Assembly (NCBI RefSeq): GCF_964204865.1
Contig: NC_135252.1
Span: 24,883,383-24,947,382 of the forward strand
Origin: Styela clava
Lineage: Eukaryota > Chordata > Ascidiacea > Stolidobranchia > Styelidae
Length of the DNA: 64,000 nt
Direction of reading: 5' to 3'
The notes under the pieces: model-generated
The model's database searches: none
Seen by the model: the letters and a program-made list of their open reading frames with translations, nothing else
What the model was told of the DNA's origin: nothing
Program-made: the position numbers and the translations under genes
Part shown: positions 1,921 to 63,796 of the stretch, piece after piece
Layout of the letters: each line of letters begins with the position of its first letter
Position numbering within the stretch: position 1 is the first letter of the stretch

Positions 1921-1993
1921 TGGAGATGCCGGGCATCGATCCCGGTACCTTGCGCATGCAAAGCGCGCGCTCCACCATATGAGCTACATCCCC
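1921..1993 (-). tRNA. tRNA-Ala-TGC: tRNA-Ala (TGC)
   Basis: Two changes: A21 to G in the D arm, and one base in the anticodon stem 3' end (TTGCGC on plus). Repeated identically at 21909. Confidence 0.9.
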
Positions 1994-2002
1994 CATGCGA
2001 CT

Positions 2003-2056
2003 GTCGGTTTCGAACCAACGCTATCGAAATGACTGGTGCCTTAGACCAGCGCCTAA
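2003..2056 (-). pseudogene. psi-Leu fragment
   Basis: Same 3' Leu fragment as 327-380, 9 nt upstream of Ala(TGC). Confidence 0.85.
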
Positions 2057-2152
2057 AAACGGAATTTGGAATTTTTCATCAAACATTATTAGTTTTCGGG
2101 ATTTTTCTATTTGAAATATTATATTACAAGTCTTCTCGTGGTAACACATTTT

Positions 2153-2162
2153 AAAAAAAAAA
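2153..2162 (-). terminator. Pol III terminator of Leu(TAG)
   Basis: Run of ten T on the minus strand, one base after the discriminator. Other copies have TTTTT (GAACAAAAACTGG form), a run of about seven to nine T, or TTTTT within the AGAAAAAGTTGG form. Confidence 0.85.
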
Positions 2163-2163
2163 C

Positions 2164-2245
2164 TGGCAGCGGTGGGATTCGAACCCACGCCATTGAAATG
2201 ACTGGTGCCTAAAACCAGCGCCTTAGACCGCTCGGCCACGCTACC
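2164..2245 (-). tRNA. tRNA-Leu-TAG: tRNA-Leu (anticodon TAG)
   Basis: 82-nt class II tRNA for CUA and CUG codons. Acceptor GGTAGCG/CGCTGCC, A box TGGCCGAGCGG, anticodon stem CTGGT/ACCAG with loop TTTAGGC, a long variable arm of about 11 nt, T stem GTGGG/CCCAC, B box GGTTCGAATCC and discriminator A. The body closely resembles animal tRNA-Leu(AAG). It differs from Leu(AAG) at the wobble base and at one variable-arm base (CAATGG versus CGATGG). The terminator follows immediately. Confidence 0.96.
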
Positions 2246-2268
2246 CTCCATATGTCAGCGTTAATGTA

Positions 2269-2302
2269 TATTCTATTTTCATCAACTTATGCAAATAGAA
2301 TA
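2269..2302 (-). promoter_or_regulatory. Inverted repeat upstream of Leu(TAG)
   Basis: B-half counterpart of the Leu upstream element: 10-bp arms at 2269-2278 and 2293-2302 around a 14-nt loop, with ATTTGCAT overlapping the right arm. Conserved in B-half copies. Confidence 0.5.
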
Positions 2303-2544
2303 ATATATATGCATACTACGTTGTATAGATGAATCTTAAGCTTAGCAGTGCGAGTGGAGGGATTATTGTCTTACAATTAAGAGCGGATTCATATCTTTAG
2401 TTTTTTTATGGTTATTTTGACTTATTGGTTAAAATTATAGATCAATGAAAGACTTTTTCTTAGTGTATATGCGAGAGGTTGGAACGAATTGAACATATTT
2501 TAATTCAAACACAAAAGCACGCTGGAAATTTATAATTGTTTAAC

Positions 2545-2548
2545 AAAA
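2545..2548 (-). terminator. Pol III terminator of Ala(AGC)
   Basis: Minimal TTTT on the minus strand, six bases past the discriminator; kept in nearly all copies. Confidence 0.75.
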
Positions 2549-2554
2549 GTAATC

Positions 2555-2576
2555 TGGAGATGCCGGGCATCGATCC

Positions 2577-2611
<35 letters not shown>

Positions 2612-2627
2612 TATGAGCTACATCCCC
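2555..2627 (-). tRNA. tRNA-Ala-AGC: tRNA-Ala (anticodon AGC)
   Basis: 73-nt tRNA with anticodon loop TTAGCAT; A34 would be edited to inosine and read GCU, GCC and GCA. It has the same body as Ala(TGC): G3:U70, discriminator A73, A54 in the T loop, intact A and B boxes and no intron. Its upstream flank has no psi-Leu; it runs AT-rich to the Leu(AAG) gene. The wobble base and the first upstream bases distinguish it from the TGC gene. Confidence 0.97.
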
Positions 2628-2722
2628 GATGCGACTATGTTTTTCATCAAACCTTATTAGTTTTTAGGATTTTTTTATTTGAATTAATATATTACAAGTT
2701 ATCGTGGTATCAAAGTTCGAGC

Positions 2723-2727
2723 AAAAA
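2723..2727 (-). terminator. Pol III terminator of Leu(AAG)
   Basis: TTTTT on the minus strand, one base after the discriminator. Copies with a GAGCC flank have TTTT. The copy at 18014 has lost it (only TTT). Confidence 0.85.
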
Positions 2728-2728
2728 T

Positions 2729-2810
2729 TGGCAGCGGTGGGATTCGAACCCACGCCATCGAAATGACTGGTGCCTTAAACCAGCGCCTTAGACCGCTCGG
2801 CCACGCTACC
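2729..2810 (-). tRNA. tRNA-Leu-AAG: tRNA-Leu (anticodon AAG)
   Basis: 82-nt class II tRNA with anticodon loop TTAAGGC; A34 (inosine after editing) reads CUU, CUC and CUA. It has an intact acceptor, D arm with A box, variable arm, T arm with canonical B box and discriminator A, with TTTTT just downstream and no intron. A34 Leu isoacceptors are a eukaryotic feature, which supports a nuclear origin. The upstream side carries the inverted repeat with TATA-like and octamer-like motifs. Confidence 0.97.
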
Positions 2811-2877
2811 CTGCATATATCAGCGTTGATGTATATTCTATTTTCATCAACATATGCAAATAGAATAATATGTATGC
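2811..2877 (-). promoter_or_regulatory. Nested inverted repeat upstream of Leu(AAG)
   Basis: Directly upstream of the Leu gene lie perfect 10-bp arms TATTCTATTT (2834-2843) and AAATAGAATA (2858-2867) around a 14-nt loop. An overlapping GTTGATG/CATCAAC pair and outer near-palindromic TGCATATAT/ATATGTATGCA sequences add to it. A TATA-like AATATAC sits at about -27 to -21 from the mature 5' end. The arrangement recurs before essentially every Leu gene. A promoter role is inference. Confidence 0.5.
2854..2861 (-). promoter_or_regulatory. Octamer-like ATTTGCAT upstream of Leu(AAG)
   Basis: ATTTGCAT on the minus strand at about -51 to -44 from the mature tRNA-Leu 5' end. The same 8-mer is the POU/Oct-1 site known from snRNA-type Pol III promoters. 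It may be chance in AT-rich DNA, but both half units keep it (B copy at 2289-2296). Confidence 0.35.
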
Positions 2878-3118
2878 ATAGTACGTTGTATAGATGAACC
2901 TTAAGCTTAGCATTGCGAGTGGTGAGATTTATGTCTGACAATTAGGAGCGGATTTCTATCTTTATTTTTTTGTGGTTAGTTTGACTTATTGGGTAAAATT
3001 ATGAAATAATGAAAGACCTTTTTTGAGTGTATATGTCAGAGGTTGGAACGAATTGAAAATATATCCATTAAAACACAAAAGCACCCTGAAAATTTAGTAT
3101 TGTTTAACAAATGAAATC

Positions 3119-3191
3119 TGGAGATGCCGGGCATCGATCCCGGTACCTCGCGCATGCGAAGTGCGCGCTCTACCATATGAGCTACATCCCC
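3119..3191 (-). tRNA. tRNA-Ala-CGC: tRNA-Ala (anticodon CGC)
   Basis: Derived from the Ala(TGC) gene by two substitutions in the anticodon arm: loop TTCGCAT gives anticodon CGC (reads GCG only), and the stem is CGCAC/GCGCG with an A30-C40 mismatch. The rest is consensus with G3:U70. The 3' flank T-run is shortened to TTT. Amplified with its block (4228, 5449). Confidence 0.88.
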
Positions 3192-4227: not shown

Positions 4228-4300
4228 TGGAGATGCCGGGCATCGATCCCGGTACCTCGCGCATGCGAAGTGCGCGCTCTACCATATGAGCTACATCCCC
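4228..4300 (-). tRNA. tRNA-Ala-CGC: tRNA-Ala (CGC)
   Basis: Second copy of the CGC variant, same stem mismatch. Confidence 0.88.
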
Positions 4301-5448: not shown

Positions 5449-5521
5449 TGGAGATGCCGGGCATCGATCCCGGTACCTCGCGCATGCGAAGTGCGCGCTC
5501 TACCATATGAGCTACATCCCC
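5449..5521 (-). tRNA. tRNA-Ala-CGC: tRNA-Ala (CGC)
   Basis: Third copy of the CGC variant. Confidence 0.88.
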
Positions 5522-6882: not shown

Positions 6883-6978
6883 ATGCAGGGTAGCGTGGCC
6901 GAGCGGTCTAAGGCGCTGGTTTAAGGCACCAGTCATTTCGATGGCGTGGGCTCGAATCCCACCGCTGCCAATTTTTGC
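6883..6978 (+). repeat. Inverted 96-bp cassette
   Basis: ATGCAGGG to TTTTTGC on the plus strand is the exact inverse of a standard Leu(AAG) gene with a few bases of 5' flank and its T5 terminator. It sits where the B-half Leu(TAG) should be. The right side resumes in the Ala(TGC) 3' flank. Confidence 0.85.
6889..6970 (+). tRNA. tRNA-Leu-AAG: tRNA-Leu (AAG), inverted copy
   Basis: The only tRNA in the window on the plus strand. All 82 nt are present with anticodon loop TTAAGGC. T54 is C, so the B box reads GGCTCGAATCC. TTTTT follows at once. The usual upstream inverted repeat is absent, so expression would depend on the internal boxes. Confidence 0.9.
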
Positions 6979-24866: not shown

Positions 24867-24888
24867 TGGAGATGCCGGGCATCGATCC

Positions 24889-24923
<35 letters not shown>

Positions 24924-24939
24924 TATGAGCTACATCCCC
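24867..24939 (-). tRNA. tRNA-Ala-AGC: tRNA-Ala (AGC) with B-half upstream flank
   Basis: Consensus AGC gene, but psi-Leu lies upstream as for TGC genes. The crossover lies inside the tRNA, between the wobble base and the 5' end. Confidence 0.94.
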
Positions 24940-30725: not shown

Positions 30726-30747
30726 TGGAGATGCCGGGCATCGATCC

Positions 30748-44551: not shown

Positions 44552-44573
44552 TGGAGATGCCGGGCATCGATCC

Positions 44574-44608
<35 letters not shown>

Positions 44609-44624
44609 TATGAGCTACATCCCC
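44552..44624 (-). tRNA. tRNA-Ala-AGC: tRNA-Ala (AGC) with A-spacer 3' flank
   Basis: Consensus AGC gene located directly after spacer A, where a TGC gene is expected. The entire B half is missing. The crossover lies in the 3' part of the tRNA. Confidence 0.94.
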
Positions 44625-57420: not shown

Positions 57421-57493
57421 TGGAGATGCCGGGCATCGATCCCGGTACCTCGCGCATACAAAGCGCGCGCTCTACCATATGAGCTACATCCCC
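57421..57493 (-). tRNA. tRNA-Ala body with TGT (Thr) anticodon
   Basis: The gene is the Ala(TGC) sequence with C36 changed to T, so the loop is TTTGTAT and the anticodon TGT, which reads the Thr codon ACA. The acceptor with G3:U70, A73, D arm and T arm is otherwise consensus, so alanyl-tRNA synthetase, which does not rely on the anticodon, would be expected to charge it with Ala. Both boxes and the terminator are intact. It may be an expressed mistranslating tRNA or a silent variant. Confidence 0.85.
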
Positions 57494-59812: not shown

Positions 59813-59885
59813 TGGAGATGCCGGGCATCGATCCCGGTACCTCGCGCATACAAAGCGCGCGCTCTACCATATGAGCTACATTCCC
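59813..59885 (-). tRNA. tRNA-Ala body with TGT (Thr) anticodon
   Basis: Second TGT copy, two units from the first. Here the acceptor also has G4 to A, breaking pair 4-69, so it is less likely to function. G3:U70 is kept. Confidence 0.82.
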
Positions 59886-63723: not shown

Positions 63724-63796
63724 TGGAGATGCCGGGCATCGATCCCGGTACCTCGCGCATGCAAAGCGCGAGCTCTATCATATGAGCTACATCCCC
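63724..63796 (-). tRNA. tRNA-Ala-TGC: tRNA-Ala (TGC) with A-half upstream flank
   Basis: Two D-arm changes (ATGATAGAGCTCG), and no psi-Leu upstream; instead it has the AGC-type leader. A TGC gene recombined into the A half. Confidence 0.84.

Follow-up and report, generated by a model that had tools for sequence, protein, structure and literature searches.

The window analyzed here, a stretch of 64,000 nucleotides (C3:24,883,383-24,947,382), lies in a eukaryotic tandem array of tRNA-Ala and tRNA-Leu genes whose repeat is a dimer of two homologous half-units, and both tRNAs differ between the halves at the wobble base, A34 in half A and T34 in half B. Probably, a Leu-Ala module was duplicated, both genes of copy B were re-coded from A34 to T34 in place, and the dimer was then amplified, an order of events that we infer from sequence comparisons.

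In the window together with neighboring stretches (133,983 bases, ~134 kb), 317 full-length genes are found. With the anticodons read in register, these are 165 Ala genes (82 AGC, 78 TGC, 3 CGC, and 2 TGT) and 152 Leu genes (83 TAG and 69 AAG). Full-length array genes are all located between C3:24,855,467 and about 24,962,120, except for an Ala-AGC at C3:24,847,728 and a degenerate Ala at C3:24,973,181. The window part of the array (1-64000) received 191 tRNA calls by ARAGORN, all but one on the minus strand, and likewise 191 tRNA matches by Rfam. The bodies of these tRNAs look like those of animal tRNAs. The sole plus-strand gene of the window is a Leu-AAG at 6889-6970, and a second inverted Leu-AAG is found about 32 kb away at C3:24,858,336, within a block of 9.8 kb that is repeated at 99.5% identity with its copies about 32 kb apart. 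Such long near-identical blocks indicate that large stretches of the array were copied, too.

On the coding strand, the dimer reads Leu-AAG, A spacer (101 bases), Ala-AGC, A tail (309 bases), Leu-TAG, B spacer (169-170 bases), Ala-TGC, and B tail (308 bases), and the segment map shows this tRNA unit repeated head-to-tail with homologous spacers, as in a tandem tRNA gene array. For example, the region 1921-3118 holds four tRNA genes, all on the minus strand like their flanks. The B-half Ala, at 1921-1993, is followed downstream by a B tail (1613-1920), its 3′ flank, which runs into a Leu-AAG. The B spacer (1994-2163) separates it from the B-half Leu-TAG at 2164-2245; the A tail (2246-2554), the 3′ flank of the A-half Ala-AGC at 2555-2627, runs into this Leu-TAG, and the A spacer (2628-2728) lies between the Ala-AGC and the A-half Leu-AAG at 2729-2810. 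These flanks were delimited by the half-unit alignment and the segment map, and the Leu-TAG, Ala-AGC, and Leu-AAG genes were called by both ARAGORN and Rfam. The remaining portion, 2811-3118, is assigned in the segment map to the B tail of the next Ala gene (3119-3191). The wobble contrast that the initial annotation described in this unit is indeed present; its B-half Ala, however, is itself mutated, having TGC in register and departing from the TGC consensus at two body positions. ARAGORN labels this gene Gln-TTG, and it labels other array genes Arg-TCG; both labels were rejected, as in register with the Ala body the anticodons are TGC and CGC, respectively.

The A and B halves can be aligned end to end, as the initial annotation had stated, except that B spacers carry a truncated Leu pseudogene of AAG type, which is absent from the A-spacer consensus; in the unit above, it occupies 2003-2054 on the minus strand and covers Leu positions of about 23-74. 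Between the consensus sequences of the two halves, the Ala gene differs at 1 of 73 sites (A34/T34) and the Leu gene at 2 of 82, namely the first anticodon base (A/T, gene position 35) and a variable-arm site (G52/A52), so that the bodies are nearly identical as claimed, while 18 of 101 spacer sites and 37 of 308 tail sites differ (12-18%). Fixed A/B differences are thus 3 of 155 sites in genes and 55 of 409 in flanks (Fisher p = 9e-6), and the ratio of fixed to polymorphic sites, counted with the long A spacer left out, is 3:69 in genes and 55:193 in flanks (p = 2e-4, from copies that are not independent). The rows used for consensus and diversity were 60 of 82 for Ala-AGC, 73 of 78 for Ala-TGC, 68 of 69 for Leu-AAG, and 75 of 83 for Leu-TAG, the spacers and tails being selected for length and phase, and here, too, the copies are not independent. 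The smaller number of fixed differences in genes than in flanks indicates that gene bodies were constrained during the divergence of A and B. Within classes, diversity is 0.006-0.020 in genes and 0.015-0.035 in flanks, and because these ranges overlap, any constraint that now acts on single copies is weak.

Some A spacers are longer, about 582 bases, and contain an Ala fragment and a long insert. One of these, at 949-1530 on the minus strand, adjoins an Ala-AGC (876-948) that has T1 in place of G1; T1 is found in 21 Ala-AGC copies, and the end of the long A spacer lies upstream of 21 Ala-AGC copies. The insert also matches pieces from the array edge (L009 4492-4630 and 7236-7491), and it may derive from the original flank of the array.

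Anticodon and flank type are almost completely linked across the array. All 83 Leu-TAG genes have an A tail upstream and a B spacer downstream, and 67 of the 69 Leu-AAG genes have a B tail upstream and an A spacer downstream, the other two being the inverted copies, which are untyped. Of the 78 Ala-TGC genes, 77 lie between two flanks of B type. Ala-AGC has an A or long-A spacer upstream together with an A tail downstream in 65 of 82 cases, one B flank in 10, and untyped flanks in 7; none of the 82 in the array region was found with B type on both sides, and no such intermediate was seen there. Among the 10 with one B flank, four are weakly typed, including a relic at the array edge (see below), and six are clear hybrids, of which four combine a B spacer with an A tail (24867-24939 and likewise at 30726, 32556, and 34317, minus strand) and two an A spacer with a B tail (for example, 44552-44624, minus strand). 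Ala-TGC has one clear hybrid, with an A spacer upstream and a B tail downstream (63724-63796, minus strand). The hybrids fit exchange within the Ala gene.

The direction of the wobble change is suggested by the array edge. A diverged relic at C3:24.8475 Mb is made up of a tail and two genes, an Ala-AGC and an internally deleted Leu; the latter retains TTTAAGG and, in its variable arm, the G typical of AAG genes. At ungapped flank sites where A and B differ, the relic agrees with B in 21 cases and with A in 14, is private at 22, and all three differ at 7, so it would sit near the root of the A/B split, being a single locus somewhat nearer B whose genes could have been moved by recombination. 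Taken together, this relic and the dispersed AGC and AAG genes indicate that A34 probably came first in Ala and Leu alike, T34 being derived in B.

Genes outside the array were compared next to those inside it. With position 34 excluded, array Ala-TGC shows no difference from Ala-AGC on C2, on C18, and in the edge relic, one from AGC on C17, and two from the compared AGC copy at C3:21.30 Mb. When one representative was taken per place, the six TGC representatives differ from array Ala-TGC at 2 positions (C3:21.30), 7 (C17 and C3:22.86, each), 8 (C1 and C6, each), and 10 (C9). In an Ala tree built without column 34, array TGC is equal to the AGC rows, with most forks weak (one of eight starred); an AU test (p 0.028) was set aside because identical rows, array TGC included, had been left free. 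Hence, in the tree comparison proposed by the initial annotation, array Ala-TGC does not nest with dispersed TGC among the genes compared but groups with AGC bodies. Array Ala-TGC therefore has the body of one isoacceptor family and the anticodon of another, and its flanks are homologous to a locus with the old anticodon, both between A and B and at the edge relic, which is the pattern of remoulding.

The same comparison is silent for Leu. Leu-AAG genes at three dispersed places are equal to the array AAG gene, and at least three intact Leu-TAG genes lie outside the array, two at C3:21.30 and one on C17, in addition to at least three degenerate copies near C3:21.37-21.43 Mb. The Leu-TAG found outside the array has the AAG-type body (compared for the three intact genes), and because of this, Leu bodies do not distinguish re-coding from recruitment. 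Array Leu-TAG is nevertheless a form of its own: its core (T34 and A52) has 75 matches in the genome-wide searches, which cover a 376.6-Mb assembly of 379 contigs, and all 75 lie within C3:24,856,197-24,961,709. Leu-TAG with another body was not found by two patterns, one of which required G in the variable arm; the other barred A after TTAGGN and matched only two array copies. A looser pattern (TTAGG, gap, GGTTCRANTCC) gave 398 forward and 162 reverse matches in the genome, and it also matches a dispersed SINE-like family, with forward matches far exceeding reverse ones; the Leu genes counted outside the array are therefore a lower bound. Searches with the array patterns gave no match in viral contigs and prokaryote genomes, and one match in phages, a tRNA-Ala.

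The claim of the initial annotation that a Leu-Ala module was duplicated and its wobble base changed inside one copy agrees with the flank homology, the Ala body match, the edge relic, and the finding of the array form of Leu-TAG in the array alone. In the scheme that we favor, an ancestral module of Leu-AAG, spacer, Ala-AGC, and tail would have been duplicated in tandem. In copy B, both genes would then have changed A34 to T34, giving Leu-TAG and Ala-TGC with bodies otherwise conserved, by in-place isoacceptor re-coding, either through point mutation or through a short conversion tract whose source was another TGC or TAG gene. From then on, the A-B dimer would have been the unit that was amplified and shuffled by unequal exchange. 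The observed part of this scheme comprises the homology of the halves, the linkage, the gene and flank divergence, the recombinants, A34 in the relic, and the array-only form of Leu-TAG.

An overlapping sub-case, which we regard as possible but distinctly less probable, is that the B genes were overwritten after duplication by short tracts from isoacceptors of the type found at C3:21.30 Mb or C17:7.78 Mb. These places hold small mixed clusters (L016 3821-6623 and L019 4569-6225, respectively) with Leu-TAG, Ala-TGC, and Ala-AGC, so that TGC and TAG genes are present in both; in the C3:21.30 Mb cluster, two Leu copies with a defective anticodon loop lie beside the two intact Leu-TAG. Donor-like genes exist for both tRNAs. 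Leu-TAG on C17 is equal to the array Leu-AAG gene except for T34 and is a possible Leu donor, and Ala-TGC at C3:21.30, which shares positions 7-66 with array Ala-TGC, could have donated a tract of at most about 60 bases. Such an Ala tract, however, must exclude positions 6 and 67, and none of the three intact TAG genes found elsewhere has the A52 of array Leu-TAG, the T34 and A52 core being confined to the array. Furthermore, the flanks of the two clusters are common to each other, not clearly to the array: their Leu-TAG upstream flanks are nearly identical over 98 bases and their Ala-TGC downstream flanks can be aligned over about 105 bases (0 of 500 shuffles in each case), whereas the similarity of their Leu-TAG flanks to array tails is weak at most (21 to 203 of 1000 shuffles are as good). 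When array segments were searched by BLAST for shared flanks, L016 and L019 yielded nothing beyond gene-derived matches, and L018 a single weak match to a tail. Upstream of a degenerate Leu-AAG on C17 lies a 36-base stretch that resembles the array tails and is in register with them (none of 1000 shuffles did as well); the association of array-type flank with AAG is thus seen beyond the array as well. A match between the C17 Ala-TGC flank and the A tail was weak and out of register (8 of 500 shuffles) and was not counted.

Selection for a complementary A34/U34 pair, which the initial annotation suggested as the driver of both switches together, seems unlikely. In its favor, the two wobble sites make up two of the three fixed differences in 155 gene sites (chance 2.5e-4), and gene bodies stayed alike while flanks diverged; such a concentration is also the expectation if constrained bodies tolerate synonymous anticodon change. 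In eukaryotes, the decoding of four-codon boxes relies mainly on isoacceptors with A34 (inosine) or U34. A34 and U34 being the usual isoacceptors, the matched T34 phase of two genes that both switched is about a coin toss, a 1-in-2 chance worth approximately one bit. C34 copies arose, too: besides the AGC and TGC genes, whose alternation was correctly noted in the initial annotation, the window has three Ala-CGC copies. TGC genes are not confined to the array either, as a canonical Ala-TGC pattern has 37 matches outside it, 33 of them on C9. The latter contig harbors another tRNA array, in which Ala-TGC and Ala-CGC occur with Ser-GCT and Ser-CGA (L028 1-10000 is part of it) and whose TGC matches extend to about C9:21.195 Mb. 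Stem integrity moreover shows opposite trends in the two tRNAs. All 17 scored stem pairs are intact in 41 of 83 Leu-TAG versus 64 of 69 Leu-AAG (p = 2e-9, from copies that are not independent), about half of the Leu-TAG copies having a broken stem pair, while for Ala, stem pairs are intact in 65 of 76 scored TGC genes, two rows with indels being dropped, versus 48 of 82 AGC genes.

A related suggestion, in which we place equally little confidence, is that the dimer is a self-completing decoding cassette, selection having fixed T34 in both genes of one half and the array then having spread as a unit. If the genes work, the GCN and CUN boxes are covered jointly by the inosine-34 and U34 forms. 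If the cassette reading were true, each repeat would supply both forms for both boxes, and wobble choice would be open to study in matched gene contexts at one locus.

Independent recruitment, in which the array would have acquired its TGC and TAG by insertion of separate genes, is very improbable. These isoacceptors do occur together in the small clusters elsewhere, but homology between the halves extends to both flanks of each gene, which already contradicts recruitment; array Ala-TGC has the AGC body, and no other-body Leu-TAG was matched by the two patterns, both of them restrictive.

Several array genes have features of their own. Pol III terminators need a T-run, namely four T. Within the 15 bases that follow the gene, such a run is found for 83 of 83 Leu-TAG, 77 of 78 Ala-TGC, 65 of 69 Leu-AAG, and 66 of 82 Ala-AGC genes, for both TGT genes, and for none of the three CGC genes. 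The latter (3119-3191, 4228-4300, and 5449-5521, minus strand), B-half Ala genes with CGC in register under the ARAGORN label Arg-TCG, are identical, have a broken anticodon-stem pair, and lack the T-run; probably, they come from one amplified event. Two genes at 57421-57493 and 59813-59885 have Ala bodies with the Thr anticodon TGT and keep G3:U70, the pair that marks alanine tRNA. Their label, Thr-TGT, was rejected since they are Ala bodies with an altered third anticodon base. If expressed, they could insert alanine at ACA codons; more likely, they are decaying copies.

Single loci are the usual basis for inferring anticodon re-coding; the present case offers homologous flanks, an edge relic, and dispersed genes as pointers to its direction. 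With roughly 70-80 copies per form in matched contexts, expression, modification, and decay of A34 and U34 genes can be compared at one locus, and the array-only Leu-TAG with A52 is a ready marker for array expression. The case also warns that selection is poorly supported by matched wobble changes on their own.

Isoacceptor anticodon shift, or remoulding, is described for nuclear genomes as a change of anticodon within the same amino acid while the body is kept (PMC4981973, PMC7884595), and array Ala is alike in this respect. In the portions of those reports available here, however, remoulding is treated gene by gene at orthologous loci, whereas in this array two neighboring genes of a repeat half show the same change, and it is the dimer that was amplified. 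Plants have tandem arrays of mixed tRNA units, including one of Ala-TGC and Leu-CAG on Chr08 of a bryophyte coded Cpu (PMC12652284). That array resembles the present one in its short Ala and Leu unit in tandem. As excerpted, it has one Ala and one Leu isoacceptor, whereas the dimer here has two of each, with presumably animal-like tRNAs. Very high copy numbers of clustered or tandem tRNA genes are likewise known, from the tRNA arrays of Entamoeba histolytica and from zebrafish and Nematostella, whose tRNAs are clustered (PMC2888827); the excerpted text of that report does not describe homologous half-units in which wobble changes are paired. Two adjacent tRNAs of one repeat re-coded together were not found in the titles and abstracts of the papers that the literature searches listed, which leaves absence unproven. 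Thus anticodon re-coding and tandem tRNA arrays are each known, and what appears to be new in this array is the re-coding of both members of one repeat unit.
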